From assembly GCA_021300195.1 (NCBI GenBank), contig JAJTIE010000015.1, positions 1 to 33,724 on the forward strand: a stretch of 33,724 bases of DNA, given 5' to 3'. The translations under genes were made by a program, and so were the position numbers. This stretch comes from Bacteroidota bacterium. GTDB taxonomy: Bacteria; Bacteroidota; Bacteroidia; J057; JAJTIE01. Below the pieces are notes generated by a model, which worked only from the letters and a program-made list of their open reading frames with translations, was not told where the DNA came from and made no database searches. Positions 9,593-25,531 of the stretch are shown in pieces (position 1 is the stretch's first letter; every line of letters starts with the position of its first letter).

Positions 9593-9721
9593 TCATAACC
9601 ACATCCGTGGCAGATTGGTTTAAGGAATGGTGGGCACAGGCGCACAGGGAGAGTAAAAATAGACAGTGCGCCGCTGCTGTGCAAGCCGAGCCCAGTTCCA
9701 TTCCGTCCCCGGGGTTTTTGC

Positions 9722-9729
9722 TATTTTTG
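9722..9729 (+). promoter_or_regulatory. -7 promoter element TATTTTTG (acyltransferase fusion)
   Basis: It is an exact TAnnTTTG match, 20 bases before the ATG at 9750. This spacing is the same as at the SemiSWEET gene and supports that start over the longer frame opening at 9666. Confidence 0.5.
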
Positions 9730-9749
9730 TATACTGCCCATACAGCAAT

Positions 9750-11645
9750 ATGACTAGTAAACGGAAAGCGCGGATTAACTCCCGCACGCGAAAGGAGCCG
9801 AAGCTGATCAACACAGCCGAGCTGTTTCAGCACCCGGTGAAGCGGAAGGTCTATTCCTTTTTGCTGAAGCCTGGCCTGGAAAAGGTGATGGGCATAGAGA
9901 AGCTGAATGCCGCCTACGAGGCCTCCAAGGTGTATATGAAGACACACCAGGTAACCTTTGTAGAAGCTGTTTTTGCGGTATGGGGCATCGAGTATGAAAT
10001 ACCCGAAGAATCGCTGACCAAGCTGCGCGAGCACGAGGGTCCGTTGGTCATTGTCTGCAATCACCCGTTTGGTGGGTTGGAGGCCATTTTCCTTATGATC
10101 CTGGCACACCGCATTCGCCCGGACCGCTACAAGGTGATGGCCAACTTTATGCTACAGATACCCGAGTTGGTAGACAAGTTCATTTTTGTAGACCCTTTTG
10201 AGAATGCCGAGAGCAAGCAGCGCAACATGTCGCCGCTGCGCGAGGTAATGCAGTATCTGAAGGATGGCGGCCTGCTGGGCATCTTTCCGGCGGGCGAGGT
10301 GGCAAGCTTCGACCTGAAGTCCAAGCGGGTGATGGAGCCGGAGTGGAATGCGAACATCTCCAAGATCATCCAGCGCACAGGGGCTGCCGTGGTGCCGGTG
10401 TACTTTCATGGGCACAATAGTTTTCTGTTTCAGATGGCGGGCGTTATCCATGCACGGCTGCGTACCACCCTGCTGGTGCGCGAGTTTGTAAACCCCCGCA
10501 GCAACCGCATTGTACACGCAATGGGCAACCTGATACCGCCCAGCAAGATCCAGTCTTTTGAAAACCCGGACACCCTTACCGCCTACCTGCGGCAGAAGAC
10601 CCTACTGCTGCGTGCCCGTGTAGACCGGGGCGAAAAGCAGCAGCACATCCGCCTGCGGCACCCGCTCCGCCGCCGTAGTGGAAGAGAGCTACAGCCCGTG
10701 GCCCCACCCGTGGATACGGCCATCCTGCGGGATGAGCTGGCCCGCATGCCCGAGTGCGTAATCAGCACGCACCGAAACCTGGATGTGGTAATTTTTGATG
10801 CAGACCAAGCCCCAGGCCTGCTGATGGAGGTGGGCCGCCTGCGCGAGCTTACCTTTCGCTCGGTAGGCGAGGGTACAGGCAAGGCCATTGACCTGGACAA
10901 GCACGACTACTACTACCACCACCTCATCGTGTGGGACCGCGAGGCGGGCAAGATCGTGGGGGGCTACCGCATGGGCGAGGTAGACACCATACTGCGAAAC
11001 CAGGGACCTACAGGCCTGTACATCAACAGCCTCTTCCACGTGGATAGCAAGCTGTTTGACGAAATTGGGCCCTCGCTGGAGTTGGGGCGGTCTTTTGTGG
11101 CCCAGGAGTACCAGCGTAATTTCTATAGCCTTTTCCTGCTTTGGGTGGGCATCGGCAACTTTATTGTACGCAATCCACGCTACAAAAACCTGATAGGCCC
11201 AGTTTCCATTAGCGACGACTACCACGTGGTGAGCAAAAACATGCTGGTCAATTTCCTGCTGGAGCACCACTACCATACCGACCTGAAAGACTACGTGCAG
11301 CCCAAGAAGCCTTTTCAGCAGAAACTAGACTACGAGCCCGCCTTCTACGATATGCTGAATGTGCAGAAGCTGCAGGACGTGCACGAGCTGATAACGGAAG
11401 TGGAAAAGCAGGATAAGGGTGTGCCCATCCTCATCAAGCACTATCTGCGCATGGGCAGCCGGATCCTGGCCTTCAATGTAGACCCCGAGTTTCAGAACTC
11501 GCTGGATGCCCTTACGCTGATAGACCTGACCAAGACCGACCCCAGCCTGCTGACCAAGTATATGGGCGAGGCTGGCTATGCCGCTTTTATGGCCTACCAC
11601 GGCCTACAGCCACCCGGCCCGGCATCTGCGGATGCACCGGTGTAG
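9750..11645 (+). CDS. Bifunctional lipid acyltransferase, OlsF-like (PlsC-type + OlsB/hemolysin-type GNAT)
   Basis: This 631-residue protein has two fused acyltransferase domains. The N-terminal PlsC-like domain (about residues 75-300) shows NHPFGGLEA at 104-112 and FPAGEVAS near 179, as in lysophosphatidate-type O-acyltransferases. The C-terminal domain (about 345-590) is the OlsB/hemolysin-type N-acyltransferase: RLRELTFRSVGEGTG, then YHHLIVWDREAGKIVGGYR, then ELGRSFVAQEYQRN. This order matches OlsF of Flavobacterium and Serratia, which makes ornithine lipids. Glycine-lipid synthesis in Bacteroides uses related separate proteins, so the head-group amino acid is uncertain. The start at 9750 fits the promoter element 20 bases upstream and omits an unlikely N-terminal extension. 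Confidence 0.88.
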   Translation: MTSKRKARINSRTRKEPKLINTAELFQHPVKRKVYSFLLKPGLEKVMGIEKLNAAYEASKVYMKTHQVTFVEAVFAVWGIEYEIPEESLTKLREHEGPLVIVCNHPFGGLEAIFLMILAHRIRPDRYKVMANFMLQIPELVDKFIFVDPFENAESKQRNMSPLREVMQYLKDGGLLGIFPAGEVASFDLKSKRVMEPEWNANISKIIQRTGAAVVPVYFHGHNSFLFQMAGVIHARLRTTLLVREFVNPRSNRIVHAMGNLIPPSKIQSFENPDTLTAYLRQKTLLLRARVDRGEKQQHIRLRHPLRRRSGRELQPVAPPVDTAILRDELARMPECVISTHRNLDVVIFDADQAPGLLMEVGRLRELTFRSVGEGTGKAIDLDKHDYYYHHLIVWDREAGKIVGGYRMGEVDTILRNQGPTGLYINSLFHVDSKLFDEIGPSLELGRSFVAQEYQRNFYSLFLLWVGIGNFIVRNPRYKNLIGPVSISDDYHVVSKNMLVNFLLEHHYHTDLKDYVQPKKPFQQKLDYEPAFYDMLNVQKLQDVHELITEVEKQDKGVPILIKHYLRMGSRILAFNVDPEFQNSLDALTLIDLTKTDPSLLTKYMGEAGYAAFMAYHGLQPPGPASADAPV

Positions 11646-13174: not shown

Positions 13175-13390
13175 ATGGCGAAAAAGAACAACGACTTTGA
13201 TTATCCCACTGCCGTAGCCCGGCTGGGCGAGATTTTGCAGAAGATTCAGCAGGATGACACCCCCATCGAGGAGAGTTATCTGCTCTTCAAACAAGGCAAT
13301 GCGCTCATTGAGCAATGCCGTGCGTACCTGGACCAGACAGAGCTGAAGGTGCAGCAGCTGATAGATGGCCGCCTGGCCGACTTTGAGTAG
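13175..13390 (+). CDS. xseB: Exodeoxyribonuclease VII small subunit (XseB)
   Basis: This 71-residue helical protein has the family pattern DYPTAVARLGEILQKIQQ, then PIEESYLLFKQGNALIEQC, then LDQTELKVQQL. XseB binds the large subunit XseA, which degrades single-stranded DNA. The length is normal. xseA usually lies next to xseB but is not in this window; here the partner upstream is an unrelated lipoprotein gene, with stop and start arranged as TGATATG. A hairpin followed by a T-run lies about 40 bases downstream. Confidence 0.92.
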   Translation: MAKKNNDFDYPTAVARLGEILQKIQQDDTPIEESYLLFKQGNALIEQCRAYLDQTELKVQQLIDGRLADFE

Positions 13391-13430: not shown

Positions 13431-13454
13431 GCACCCACAAGTGCCCGTTTTTTT
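13431..13454 (+). terminator. Weak intrinsic terminator candidate after xseB
   Basis: A short stem (GCAC / GTGC with a six-base loop) is followed within three bases by seven T. The stem is only four pairs, so termination would be weak. Confidence 0.3.
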
Positions 13455-13509
13455 CGTTCATACGATCTGTGCTTTTACCAGCGAAAGCATATTTGATGTA
13501 CATTTGAGT

Positions 13510-15777
13510 ATGCAGCAAGCGATCCGAACCCTTTCTCGGCCGTGGCTTTGGTGGGTGTGCATGCAGTGCGCCTGCGTGGCCTGTGGCCTGTGGGGGGCTG
13601 CCATGGGGCAGCAGCATGATTTTCATACGTATCCCCCGCTGCAGAGCCGGGCACCCATCCCGCAGAACTTTCTGCGGCCCACTGTGCCTCCACTGCCCGA
13701 CCCGGAGGCGACTAATGGGCAGGACAGCCTGCAGCAGGGAAGCCTGACACCCACGGATAACCATAGCCTGCTGGCAGAGATCAAGAGCAGCGGAGCCGTC
13801 CTGTTAAACGACCCCATTGCCCAGTATATTGGCCGCGTGGCCGATTTTATCCTGCGAGACGACCGCGCGCTGCGGAGCCGCCTCCGTTTTTATGTGGTAA
13901 AAAGTCCCGCCGTCAATGCCTTTACCACGCTTGAGGGAGATGTATTCCTGACGGTTGGGCTTTTCTGCCAACTGGAGACAGAGGCGGAGCTGGCCTACAT
14001 CCTGTGCCGGGAGTTTGCCAACTATGAGCTACAGCACGCCTGGAACAACTATAGCCAGCGCCTAACCCTGGGCGCTAACCAGGCCGAGCTGCAAAAGCCC
14101 CCACTGGAGGCACGTGTGTTCGACCATAGCCTGTATACTGCCGAGCAGGCCGCCGCCGCAGATGTGTATGGCTTCCAGTACTACAAGGACACGAAGTACC
14201 ACATGTTTGCCCCCAACTTTGTGTTCGACTATCTTCTGTACGCGCGCTATCCCTACGACGATATGTTCTTTGTAGCAGATCGCCTGCAAACAGATTATCT
14301 CCTTTTCCCCGCCGATTATGTCCTGCCCAAAACCCGCGGCATAACCGAGGAAGAGATATTTGACAACGAGCGCCTAAGCCCCCACCCAAACATCCTGCGC
14401 CGCCGGGCAGAGGTAAACCAGCTGGCGGGCCCCCTCTTTGGCCAGGGCACCCAGTGGTTTCAGGTAAGCGAGGAGGATTTTGCTGCCTGCCACCAGCTGT
14501 GCCGTTTTGAGCAGATACGCCTGCGCCTGCTGCAGCGCCAGTATGTGGCAGCCCTGTACGACACCTACATGCTGGAGTTCTTCTATCCCAACAATCTTTA
14601 CCTCACCAAAGCTCGGGTGAAGGCACTGTACGCCCTGGCACAGTACGCCAACGCCAACCAGAAGTATGTGGTGCTGCCCGACTGGAAGCAGCAAGAGGGC
14701 TACTGGCAGCGGCTACACCACCTGCTGTACCGGATGAGCCCGGGCGAACTAACCGGTGTAGCCTGCATCCATGCGTGGAATGCTCGAAAGGAATTTCCGC
14801 AGGACGAGGAACTGGCCGGGCTGAGCGATGCCCTGCTGAAGTCTCTGGTTAGTCAGCACATTCTTAGCCTGAATGAACTGTATGACCAGCCCGCCGCCCC
14901 CGAGGACCTGAGTGCTAACGCGGCACCCCGTGCCACTACCATAGACGGCATTACCTACACGAGCCCAAAAGTGCGCCAGAGCAGCTTTGTCCGATACGCT
15001 TTTGTAGACCTGAAGAAGGACCCTGCTTTTGTGGAAAGATTTGAGTTTTTCCGCCGAAACAGCGATTGGGTAGAGGTGCGCCTGGCAGAAGTATCCGGAT
15101 ATTCTGACCCGAACCAGGAAAAGCAGGCAAAAGAAGAGAAGGTGGAGCAGAGCCCGGAAGTGCGGCAGGCCGAGACAACGGCACGCATTGACCGCATCCT
15201 GCTAAATGAGCCGGAGTACCTGGTAGTGGATAAGCGCATAGAGGGCCAGCAGCAGCTGGCTACGGATGTGGCCGGCACAAGCACCGTGTGCAAGATACTG
15301 GCCGATACCACGGGGCAGGGCCCCATTGCCACCGCCGTGCTAGCCCCGAGCCTGTTTGAGGCAAATATGGCGACAGCCTATAATGACCTGAGCTACCTGA
15401 ATGAGTGGCTGGCCGAGCGGCAACAGCACCGGGGGGTAGAACTACTGCCCATGGACCCCGGGCGTTCACCCGAGATACAGGCCCGATACGGAACCGATTA
15501 TGTGGGGCACACCCGTGTGCTGCGCACGGTGGAGCGGCGCCAGAACAAGGGGGCCGTGCTGGCCGCCACCATCGTGGCCCTGCCTGCCCTGCCCTATGGC
15601 CTGTACTACAATGCTACACCCGACTATAACACCTCCTTCTCTACCGAGCTATATAACCTCTCTACCGGTCAGCTGGTGTATCAGGGCTACCATGTACGCA
15701 AGGCAAAAGACAAGCAAAGCACCCTGGAGAAGGCGATAGCGCGAGAACTGGAGGCTATAAACAAGCTGGAAAAGTAG
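13510..15777 (+). CDS. M48-type metalloprotease homologue with degenerate active site
   Basis: From the ATG at 13510 the protein has 755 residues with a signal peptide ending near GAAMGQQ. Residues about 95-325 follow the M48 peptidase fold: RLRFYVVKSPAVNAFTTLEG, then DVFLTVGLFCQLETEAELAY, and later LSPHPNILRRRAEV, which corresponds to the THPS...R motif. Where active members have HExxH, this has REFAN (about residues 167-171) before YELQH. The later E-x-x-A-D zinc ligand is A-A-A-A-D. All three zinc ligands are therefore absent, and protease activity is unlikely. The C-terminal 400 residues are of unknown function, with possible helical repeats at about 340-460. The protein is probably periplasmic. 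Confidence 0.8.
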   Translation: MQQAIRTLSRPWLWWVCMQCACVACGLWGAAMGQQHDFHTYPPLQSRAPIPQNFLRPTVPPLPDPEATNGQDSLQQGSLTPTDNHSLLAEIKSSGAVLLNDPIAQYIGRVADFILRDDRALRSRLRFYVVKSPAVNAFTTLEGDVFLTVGLFCQLETEAELAYILCREFANYELQHAWNNYSQRLTLGANQAELQKPPLEARVFDHSLYTAEQAAAADVYGFQYYKDTKYHMFAPNFVFDYLLYARYPYDDMFFVADRLQTDYLLFPADYVLPKTRGITEEEIFDNERLSPHPNILRRRAEVNQLAGPLFGQGTQWFQVSEEDFAACHQLCRFEQIRLRLLQRQYVAALYDTYMLEFFYPNNLYLTKARVKALYALAQYANANQKYVVLPDWKQQEGYWQRLHHLLYRMSPGELTGVACIHAWNARKEFPQDEELAGLSDALLKSLVSQHILSLNELYDQPAAPEDLSANAAPRATTIDGITYTSPKVRQSSFVRYAFVDLKKDPAFVERFEFFRRNSDWVEVRLAEVSGYSDPNQEKQAKEEKVEQSPEVRQAETTARIDRILLNEPEYLVVDKRIEGQQQLATDVAGTSTVCKILADTTGQGPIATAVLAPSLFEANMATAYNDLSYLNEWLAERQQHRGVELLPMDPGRSPEIQARYGTDYVGHTRVLRTVERRQNKGAVLAATIVALPALPYGLYYNATPDYNTSFSTELYNLSTGQLVYQGYHVRKAKDKQSTLEKAIARELEAINKLEK

Positions 15778-15805: not shown

Positions 15806-16450
15806 ATGCAACTGCAGTCTTTTACCTTCAACATGTTTATGGAGAACACCTACCTGCTGTGGGATGAGGCGGGTGTGTGCGCCATTGTAGATCCCGGTTG
15901 CCTTTTCGAGCGGGAGCAGATGGTGCTGCAAGACTACATAAATCAGCATGGGCTACAGCCTACCTATCTGCTCAATACGCATTGCCATCTGGACCATGTG
16001 TTTGGCAATGCGTGGGCGGAGCGTACCTATGGCCTTAGGCCCTGGATACACGAGCAGGAGCAGGGTATTTTGCAGCGCCTGCCCGCTACAGCCGCCCACT
16101 GGGGGATAGACGGGGTAGAGGCCAGCCCACCCCCTGCGGGGCTGCTCCGGGCGGGTAGTACTTTTGGTGTAGGTAGCCTGGAGCTGGAGGTACGCTGGGC
16201 ACCCGGGCATTCGCCGGGATCGGTGCTTTTGTATCATGCTGAGTCGGGGCAGGCGCTGGTGGGCGACGTCATTTTTCAGCAGAGCATCGGACGCACAGAC
16301 CTACCTGGTGGTAGCCACGCACAGCTGATTGAGAGTATTCACAAGCAGGTGCTAAGTATGCCCGATGCCACCCGCCTGTACCCAGGCCATGGCCCAGATA
16401 CTACTGTAGGCCACGAGCGGGTGCACAACCCCTTTCTGATATCGAACTAA
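15806..16450 (+). CDS. MBL-fold hydrolase, glyoxalase II-like
   Basis: This 214-residue protein has the metallo-beta-lactamase fold of the glyoxalase II/YcbL group. The metal motif is THCHLDH at residues 58-64, with a later His in APGHSPGSV, an Asp in VGDVIFQQSIGR and a final His in YPGHGPDTTVGHE. The length and the compact C-terminus match small single-domain thioesterase-like members. The natural substrate, perhaps a glutathione- or bacillithiol-type thioester, cannot be decided from sequence. It starts 28 bases after the degenerate M48 gene and may be in the same transcript. Confidence 0.9.
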   Translation: MQLQSFTFNMFMENTYLLWDEAGVCAIVDPGCLFEREQMVLQDYINQHGLQPTYLLNTHCHLDHVFGNAWAERTYGLRPWIHEQEQGILQRLPATAAHWGIDGVEASPPPAGLLRAGSTFGVGSLELEVRWAPGHSPGSVLLYHAESGQALVGDVIFQQSIGRTDLPGGSHAQLIESIHKQVLSMPDATRLYPGHGPDTTVGHERVHNPFLISN

Positions 16451-23364: not shown

Positions 23365-23477
23365 ATGAGTATCTTGCGGCTAATCACAGAGGCTTGCAGT
23401 AGCGCAAAACGTTCGTCATGAAGCCTAGCTGCAAAAATTCGTATTCTAAGAAGTTACTATTCGCAAAAAACCAATGA
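23365..23477 (+). other. Two tiny ATGA-linked frames ahead of the DUF262 gene
   Basis: An 18-codon frame (23365-23421) ends in TCATGA, and the next ATG (23418) starts a 19-codon frame whose stop (23475-23477) overlaps the ATG of the large gene (23474) in the same way. They could be leader peptides coupled to the main gene, or chance. Their encoded peptides (MSILRLITEACSSAKRSS and MKPSCKNSYSKKLLFAKNQ) have no recognisable family. Confidence 0.3.
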
Positions 23478-25531
23478 AAGCGGTAGAAACAAAAGTAGAG
23501 GAGTTTATCTCCAAGGCTAGGACTCAGTTCGTAATTCCTGTATACCAAAGAAACTACGACTGGTCCATTCAAGACTGCCGGCAATTATTTAACGACATTA
23601 TTAGTGCAGGGAAGAACAAAGATGTGTCTGCTCATTTTATTGGTAGCATCGTCTTTTTACATAATGATGTGTATACTCATTCGCAGATAACGAAACTTAC
23701 GATAATAGATGGTCAACAACGACTAACAACACTTACTCTTATCTACTTAGCCCTACGTCATCTTTTTAAGGATCTAAAAAAAGAGGAAAACATTCAAGAA
23801 ATAGACGAGACCTATTTGATAAATAAATTTGATAAAAATCCACAAGGAAAATTTAAATTAAAAGTTACCAAAAACAACGAACAATTTTTTAAGTATATCT
23901 ATGATTGTCGGGAATCAGAGCTTATCGGATACTCTAATTTTGTTAATAATTTTAAGTATTTTAGAAAGAACATAACAGAAGATAATTACAATGATGTTAG
24001 AAGAGGTCTTTCTAAGCTCATGTTTGTTGAGATTTCTTTAGAAAGAGGAAAAGATGATCCACAGAGAATTTTTGAGAGTTTAAACTCCACGGGATTGGCA
24101 TTGTCTCAGGCAGACCTTATAAGAAATTATATCTTGATGGAACTAAGTAGTCAAGATCAAGAAGTGATCTATGAAGAATTTTGGTTTCAAATAGAGGAGT
24201 CAGCTAGGAATGAGAAAAGAAATGAGAATTTAGTATCTGACTACATTCGAGACTATCTAACGCTAATAAACAGAAGAATACCCAACAAGAAAAATGTATA
24301 TGAAGAATTTAAACAAAAATATAAGGCCACTTCAATAGAGAAACTGAAGGAAGATTTATCAGATATAAAAAAACTGAGCAAACACTTTAATAAGCTGGTA
24401 AATCCGCATAAAGAAGAAGACAAGGAAATCAGGTTACGATTGATTTCTATAAAGCGACTAGAGGTAAATGTTGCATTTCCATTTTTAATGAAAGTATATG
24501 ATGACTATAGCAACCAGATAATTGATAAGCAGGTTTTACTAGAAATCTTTGATTTCATTGAGTCATTCATTGTAAGAAGATTCATCGTTTCTCTTCCAAC
24601 CAATGCTTTAAATAAAATATTTATGAACTTACACGAAAAAATAGATTCAGATGACTACTTAGCATCAATTCAACGGCATTTAATAAGTCGATCGGGCAAT
24701 CATAGATTTCCAGATGATGGTGAAGTTATAGATGCATTGAAATCGAAGGATATTTATAATTCTAAACAAATTAAGTTCTATTTATTAGAAAAACTTGAAA
24801 ATCACGAAAACAAAGAATTTGTTAAAATTGAAGACAACTCAGACATTACTATTGAACATATTTTTCCTCAAAATCCTGATAGCTCATGGCGTGATGATCT
24901 GGATGATGAGGAGTTTGAATTTATGAAGAAGCGACAGCACACAATCTCAAATCTTACTTTATCAGGCAACAACGGGAAGCTGGGTAATAAATCATTCAAG
25001 GAAAAGAGAGACCTGAATGGCTTAGGATATAGCGACAGTCGTCTTTGGATGAACAAGCATCTCTCCAAATTAGAGAGATGGGGTAAGGATGAGCTTGAAA
25101 AGCGTTTTGATATTATACGCGATCGTTTCCTAGAAATATGGAAATACCCTGATCTAAAATTAGGTGCGAAGCACTTGTCAGGAGTTAATGAAGAAATCAG
25201 TATATTTGACGCAGATGACCCTACTAATCAAAAGCTAGAATATGTTGTTTTTTTAAGCAATCGGATAGAAGTTACAAAGATAACCGATCTTTATAAAGCG
25301 GTATTTGAGAGGCTCTTTCTGGATCATCCTGAATCTTTCTTTACTAATTCATTCCGAACTAAGTTTGGTATTAGCCATGATTCTATCGGCTTGAGAATGC
25401 CTTATTCTATCAGCGATAACTGCTTTATTGAGGTGAACCTTTCCAGTTCTGAGAAATTCAAAAAAATAAAAGCTGCGCTTACTTTTTTTGAGTTAGAAGA
25501 TGAACTGACAATAAAATACGCAGATAGCTAG
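23474..25531 (+). CDS. DUF262-DUF1524 (GmrSD-like) protein, probable modification-dependent nuclease
   Basis: This 685-residue protein has the DUF262 (GmrS-type) N-terminal domain: IPVYQRNYDW at residues 21-30, the nucleotide-site motif IDGQQRLTTL at 78-87 and FESLNSTGLALSQADLI at about 200-216. A helical linker follows. The DUF1524 (GmrD, His-Me finger nuclease) domain shows TIEHIFPQNP around 459-468 and LSGNNGKLGNKSF ending at 508, then KRD. The last 80 or so residues form an extra domain of the DUF5655 kind, which often caps such proteins. Relatives restrict DNA carrying modified bases, usually as phage defence. The gene is AT-rich, uses A/T-ending codons unlike its neighbours, and is alone on an islet. 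Confidence 0.92.
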   Translation: MKAVETKVEEFISKARTQFVIPVYQRNYDWSIQDCRQLFNDIISAGKNKDVSAHFIGSIVFLHNDVYTHSQITKLTIIDGQQRLTTLTLIYLALRHLFKDLKKEENIQEIDETYLINKFDKNPQGKFKLKVTKNNEQFFKYIYDCRESELIGYSNFVNNFKYFRKNITEDNYNDVRRGLSKLMFVEISLERGKDDPQRIFESLNSTGLALSQADLIRNYILMELSSQDQEVIYEEFWFQIEESARNEKRNENLVSDYIRDYLTLINRRIPNKKNVYEEFKQKYKATSIEKLKEDLSDIKKLSKHFNKLVNPHKEEDKEIRLRLISIKRLEVNVAFPFLMKVYDDYSNQIIDKQVLLEIFDFIESFIVRRFIVSLPTNALNKIFMNLHEKIDSDDYLASIQRHLISRSGNHRFPDDGEVIDALKSKDIYNSKQIKFYLLEKLENHENKEFVKIEDNSDITIEHIFPQNPDSSWRDDLDDEEFEFMKKRQHTISNLTLSGNNGKLGNKSFKEKRDLNGLGYSDSRLWMNKHLSKLERWGKDELEKRFDIIRDRFLEIWKYPDLKLGAKHLSGVNEEISIFDADDPTNQKLEYVVFLSNRIEVTKITDLYKAVFERLFLDHPESFFTNSFRTKFGISHDSIGLRMPYSISDNCFIEVNLSSSEKFKKIKAALTFFELEDELTIKYADS

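Follow-up and report, generated by a model that had tools for sequence, protein, structure and literature searches.

Specific loss of all three zinc ligands in an M48-type protein from a Bacteroidota family linked to predicted outer-membrane barrels

We found that a protein of the M48 peptidase family, encoded by a Bacteroidota bacterium, has lost all three zinc ligands of its former active site and has kept the catalytic glutamate, the active-site plug and the predicted fold around them. This ligand loss is real, specific and conserved. The gene lies in a stretch of 33,724 nucleotides (contig JAJTIE010000015.1) that was analysed as a whole and is called the window here. On balance, we lean towards reading its product as a secreted, metal-free pseudo-protease that would serve the envelope as a non-proteolytic, BepA-like binder or assembly factor.

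Results

The zinc ligands are lost and the surrounding site is kept

The window open reading frame, 13510-15777 on the + strand, encodes 755 aa. A longer frame with a GTG start spans 13441-15777, with its first ATG at 13510, and residues of the window protein are numbered here from the in-frame GTG at 13441. The gene, its parts and the frame upstream of it are the following:

13175-13390: XseB-like frame upstream of the window gene, named by eye from its sequence
13510-15777, + strand: pseudo-M48 protein of 755 aa, counted from the ATG start, with a signal peptide-like N terminus; orthologue L005
13753-14436, + strand: M48 domain, residues about 105-332 (AlphaFold model; VIA-align to BepA 6ait and to 3c37)
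14008-14022, + strand: degenerate HExxH, R190-E-F-A-N194 (alignments, codons)
14149-14163, + strand: degenerate third-ligand motif, A237-A-A-A-D241, Glu replaced by Ala (alignments, codons)
14383-14403, + strand: active-site plug motif H315-P-x4-R321, kept (sequence, conservation; motif described in an excerpt of PMC7950410)
14470-14856, + strand: helical domain (residues about 344-472) where BepA has its TPR domain (secondary structure of the model)
15184-15774, + strand: alpha/beta domain at the C terminus (residues about 582-778), with a putative PelC/PqiC/CsgG/TolB-N-like fold (model, fold matches, weak DUF4136 match in Pfam)

The original prediction had called this an M48-type protein without any of its three zinc ligands, and both parts were borne out. 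The protein is a member of Peptidase_M48 (PF01435, 31 bits over residues 148-322 in Pfam; cut-off 20.3), and its alignment with 46 further homologues revealed the changes H190R, H194N and E237A. The changes spared the catalytic glutamate E191, D241 and the plug H315-P316-x4-R321. Where an active zinc peptidase has HExxH and a third-ligand Glu, the window protein has REFAN and AAAAD, and scanning the whole sequence yielded no second HExxH. The motif is also correctly placed: phmmer set LCREFAN on LAHEINH of PDB 3c37 and on the motif of BepA, the family alignments concurred, and the AlphaFold2 model puts REFAN in helix 181-196 and AAAAD in helix 234-249, the two expected helices. REFAN thus sits inside the catalytic helix and not outside it. 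A sequencing or frame error as the source of the loss was rejected, since the orthologue L005 has the same three losses.

The loss is specific to a few members of the family

To see how common such losses are, we aligned 203 homologous frames from 243 loci and left out eight rows that were fragments missing the site. Among the 195 that remained, 188 carried the intact H-E-H-E-D set, so the clade-wide loss that the original prediction had asked about is rejected. In all seven exceptions the first histidine of the motif had become arginine:

Window: REFAN/AAAAD
L005: REAAN/AASAD
L037: RLVVH/QIYAD
L045: RLIAQ/QIYAD
L018: REIAH/ELAAD
L169: REIAH/QDQAD
L243: REITK/TYEYD

Of the intact members, 165 were 600 aa or longer, and in these 31 alignment columns were conserved at 90% or more. 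The window protein departed at four of the columns, G71, H190, H194 and E237, and the chance of finding three ligands among four departures is about 9e-4 (hypergeometric). One of the M48 landmarks named in the original prediction, SPHP...RRR, includes the plug histidine, which in structures of BepA serves as a fourth zinc ligand (excerpt of PMC7950410), and this histidine is kept. L005 departed at six of the 31 columns, the same three ligands included. In the intact members, H and P of the plug HPx4R were present in 161 and R in all 165, and the motif is retained in both the window protein and L005. The other five Arg-type copies have lost parts of it: L037, L045 and L243 lack both H and P, L169 lacks H and L018 lacks P.

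The former active site is the best conserved region of the window protein

L005, which comes from the only other genome sampled for the family of the window organism, is 52% identical to the window protein. Differences between the two genes were 0.35, 0.29 and 0.58 per site at codon positions 1, 2 and 3, and the NG86 method gave dN 0.43 and a dS of 1.86 that is near saturation, for a dN/dS of about 0.23. The active helix (181-200) was 80% identical between the two proteins, against 59% for the M48 domain, 54% for the helical domain and 49% for the C-terminal domain, so that no region compared is better conserved than the former active site. From these codon comparisons, the whole window protein is evidently under purifying selection.

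These data bear directly on gene decay, in which the protease function would have been dropped and the gene left to drift. Such drift would suit L045 and L243, which have diverged strongly, with departures at 13 and 17, respectively, of the 31 conserved columns. The window copy, however, has a full-length open frame in two genera, has changed at only four of these columns, and is most conserved where its active site used to be. Simple decay of this copy is largely refuted by its dN/dS and active-helix identity, and we regard it as very improbable.

A second alternative is that catalysis was altered and that metal is still bound through other residues (E191, H199, D241, H254 and H315). A relocated metal site is possible, given H254, a new histidine shared with L005 and found in 0.6% of intact relatives, together with the kept H199 and H315; E191 and D241 are kept as well. 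However, intact enzymes conserve H199 and H315 just as well, so these two do not compensate for the loss; both orthologues lack E237 and the two motif histidines; and an arginine in place of the first histidine should repel a cation. We consider altered catalysis improbable, and a protein that would no longer hydrolyse peptides is the reading we prefer.

Arginine may have replaced the first histidine repeatedly

Parsimony required at least four changes to arginine on each of three trees (a 195-row FastTree, a 60-row IQ-TREE and a 23-row tree), and well supported branches forced four, three and three of them, respectively. A single clade for all seven Arg-type copies was rejected on the 23-row tree (AU p 6e-129, for a group named post hoc and with long branches). 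The four pseudo copies of the window's family grouped together in the 195-row and 60-row trees (support 98 and 87), whereas the 23-row tree left their grouping without resolution; the two pseudo pairs of this family may stem from one event. Were four independent single-base losses all to end in arginine, the probability would be about 0.002-0.007 (kappa 2-4), and about 0.005-0.014 for all of them to end in any one same residue. With at least four parsimony events, the recurrence of arginine as the preferred replacement is suggestive only.

The predicted structure is that of a three-domain, BepA-like protein

We modelled the window protein with AlphaFold2, using the protein and 72 named-locus homologues as input, and obtained a model with a pLDDT of 82.8 and a pTM of 0.84. 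Its best Foldseek matches were BepA chains. The M48 domain aligned by VIA-align to 6ait with a Z of 16.6 (211 residues) and to 3c37 with a Z of 16.3 (194 residues). The Pfam scan of the window protein found no TPR family; the model has the helical domain 344-472 at that place, which VIA-align barely covered. Residues 582-778 matched PelC/PqiC/CsgG/TolB-N structures over 107-152 residues with 5-17% identity and a Z of about 7-10. Several members of this group reached a Z of 8-10, higher than the 7-8 that is typical for models without a clear match; these values were taken from the whole model and not from the domain folded alone. GNA1162 was likewise among the Foldseek matches for this domain. 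Two short hydrophobic helices lie within it (residues 703-725), and many relatives have a similar stretch. The long C-terminal region noticed in the original prediction therefore consists, in the model, of ordered domains, one helical and one putatively PelC/TolB-N-like.

This layout is shared by what we define here as the Bacteroidota long M48 family: an M48, a helical and a C-terminal alpha/beta domain in about 700-830 aa. The window protein fits this family in a full-length alignment with the 72 named-locus homologues (profile 678 bits), and scores 35.4 bits against a cut-off of 570 for the BepA equivalog NF052400 (NCBIfam). A phylum-wide draw of 395 genomes gave no relative beyond the window protein's own genome, so within this sample the family occurs in only a part of the class. 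Scanning genome contigs with the window protein alone as the query gave no relative.

The family is linked to a predicted outer-membrane barrel

In the named loci (Bacteroidota records titled Flavobacteriales, Saprospiraceae, Chitinophagales and others), long M48 genes had a recurrent neighbour encoding a secreted protein of about 265 aa. Its model (L086 copy; pLDDT 84.1, pTM 0.78) shows eight long strands following a signal-peptide-like helix and matches OmpA, NspA, OprF, OmpX and OmpW. Pfam offered no convincing family for this protein, and its alignment, used as a profile against solved structures, gave nothing significant. The gene lay at most 1.5 kb downstream of 60 of 74 named-locus family genes (>=600 aa, 1 kb of room) and downstream of 66 of 98 in a second locus set, which may overlap the named loci and hold repeats; both counts lean towards the barrel, whose profile was built from barrels adjoining M48 genes. 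The barrel cluster was present in 55 loci, and the next most frequent neighbour in 15.

A genome-wide count that is independent of position gave the same picture: the barrel family occurred in 78 of 99 genomes with the long M48 family versus 7 of 296 without it, in a comparison that ignores kinship and in which incomplete genomes may hide barrels. Of 116 barrel genes, 88 had a long-M48 match no more than 4 kb away. The two-gene cassette, long M48 then predicted eight-stranded barrel, is seen across L057-L136 (for example L086:8391-9206), and several barrels stand in a row at some loci (L111, L118). As a part of outer-membrane biology in Bacteroidota, this cassette has apparently gone undescribed. 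Of the seven Arg-type copies, four (L037, L045, L169 and L243) have kept the barrel gene downstream. In genome G129, a pseudo-M48 gene (L169), a barrel, an intact M48 paralogue (L192) and a second barrel follow one another (L192:1911-8547).

The window genome holds a second pseudo-M48 protein

Comparison of the flanking frames with the barrel family found no barrel gene adjoining the window gene or L005. An MBL-fold hydrolase is encoded downstream of the window gene, at 15806. The window also contains a GmrSD-type restriction endonuclease gene (23474-25528; Pfam N and C domains) and, at 9666-11642, an acyltransferase and GNAT fusion that resembles the ornithine/glycine-lipid synthases OlsF/GlsAB and scores below the equivalog cut-offs. 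A phage origin of the window gene was rejected, with no match in phage records.

Elsewhere in the genome, a second pseudo-M48 gene (L045:583-3422; G000:C18) has lost the catalytic Glu and the plug His too, and the sole barrel-family gene detected in this genome adjoins it. Both long-form M48 members found in the genome are therefore pseudo-enzymes; the intact M48 proteins that it also encodes are shorter forms of 506 aa (G000:C13) and 310 aa (G000:C3). These intact genes could be the partners of a regulatory pseudo-enzyme, one that handles no clients itself but pairs with the cell's active M48 proteases, or competes against them, and so adjusts their activity. The G129 tandem, in which an Arg-type copy and an intact paralogue are each followed by their own barrel gene, would fit such a role, and regulation of active relatives is one role listed for pseudo-metallopeptidases in an excerpt of a review (PMC11266112). 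However, with the intact proteins being the shorter forms, no close active partner was found in this genome, and hetero-oligomers found no support. We think a regulatory role unlikely, if less so than altered catalysis.

Discussion

Because three ligands are lost and the fold, the catalytic Glu, the plug and the sequence constraint are kept, the simplest reading of the window protein is a binder that no longer cuts. Because its family is tied to a barrel, outer-membrane proteins suggest themselves as clients. The protein would stem from a Bacteroidota M48 family, made of an M48, a helical and a PelC/TolB-N-like domain and normally encoded beside an outer-membrane barrel, and would act, presumably in the periplasm, like the non-proteolytic half of BepA. 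The kept substrate groove, Glu and plug may hold segments of outer-membrane proteins, which would be helped in assembly or held without cleavage. Arg190 may fill the vacated zinc site and keep pocket and plug together, a guess drawn solely from the recurrence of arginine.

What is described for BepA informs this reading on both sides. In excerpts of PMC7950410, the active site of BepA is closed by the plug, whose His246 is a fourth zinc ligand, and proteolysis requires the plug to move. On LptD, BepA also acts in a chaperone-like way and promotes maturation of this protein, an activity that the protease-dead E137Q mutant retains in part (excerpt of PMC8423444). This E. coli mutant is only weakly chaperone-active and is dominant negative (excerpts of PMC8423444 and PMC7950410); therefore, loss of catalysis alone does not give a good chaperone. 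It also counts against a binder that neither the window gene nor L005 has an adjoining barrel, and that the only barrel of this family detected in the genome sits by the other pseudo-M48 gene. The interpretation in the original prediction is supported in part: the fold is kept, the metal site is specifically removed and the family context points to outer-membrane proteins, but the window gene itself stands without a barrel neighbour. More tentatively, and with appreciable doubt, one may picture a Bacteroidota envelope system in which a BepA-like three-domain M48 protease with a barrel of its own was repeatedly made a zinc-free binder, an arginine for the histidine replacing the metal and holding the plug, as a natural chaperone-only BepA.

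The notion of inactive homologues within peptidase families is not new, and the window protein is ordinary in kind, as a pseudo-enzyme, and unusual in family and context. A literature search, with most subscription journals outside its scope, found no paper on bacterial M48 proteins without zinc ligands. A text search of the main text of the review PMC11266112 found no occurrence of M48, Ste24 or BepA. A link to known Bacteroidota BAM subunits was rejected, as neither PMC12611786 nor PMC12578637 mentions M48 or BepA in its main text. On stalled outer-membrane proteins BepA acts both as a protease and in a chaperone-like way, and mutation has separated these two roles in E. coli; natural copies that lack just the metal site, in a family with intact members and a gene-linked barrel, offer a test of whether the M48 fold can act on barrels without cutting. 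They also carry a warning for annotation, as the window protein passes the Pfam cut-off and automatic annotation would label such proteins M48 metalloproteases.

Among known systems, the pseudo-metallopeptidases (ADAMs, carboxypeptidases and others; excerpt of PMC11266112) share a kept fold, lost catalysis and binding roles, of which the last two would have presumed counterparts in the window protein. The Geobacter M48 peptidase Q74D82 (3c37) resembles its M48 domain (23% identity over the 194 aligned residues) but is a single-domain protein with an intact HExxH. The PelC/PqiC/GNA1162/CsgG/TolB-N fold resembles its C-terminal domain, which in the window protein is fused to M48 and has no lipobox assigned. 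The closest likeness is to BepA (YfgC; 6ait, 6sar), with its M48 fold, helical domain after M48, plug HPx4R, N-terminal signal-like segment and family link to barrels. Unlike BepA, the window protein is devoid of all three zinc ligands, has an extra, putatively PelC/TolB-N-like domain at its C terminus, and belongs to a family whose members have a barrel gene of their own.
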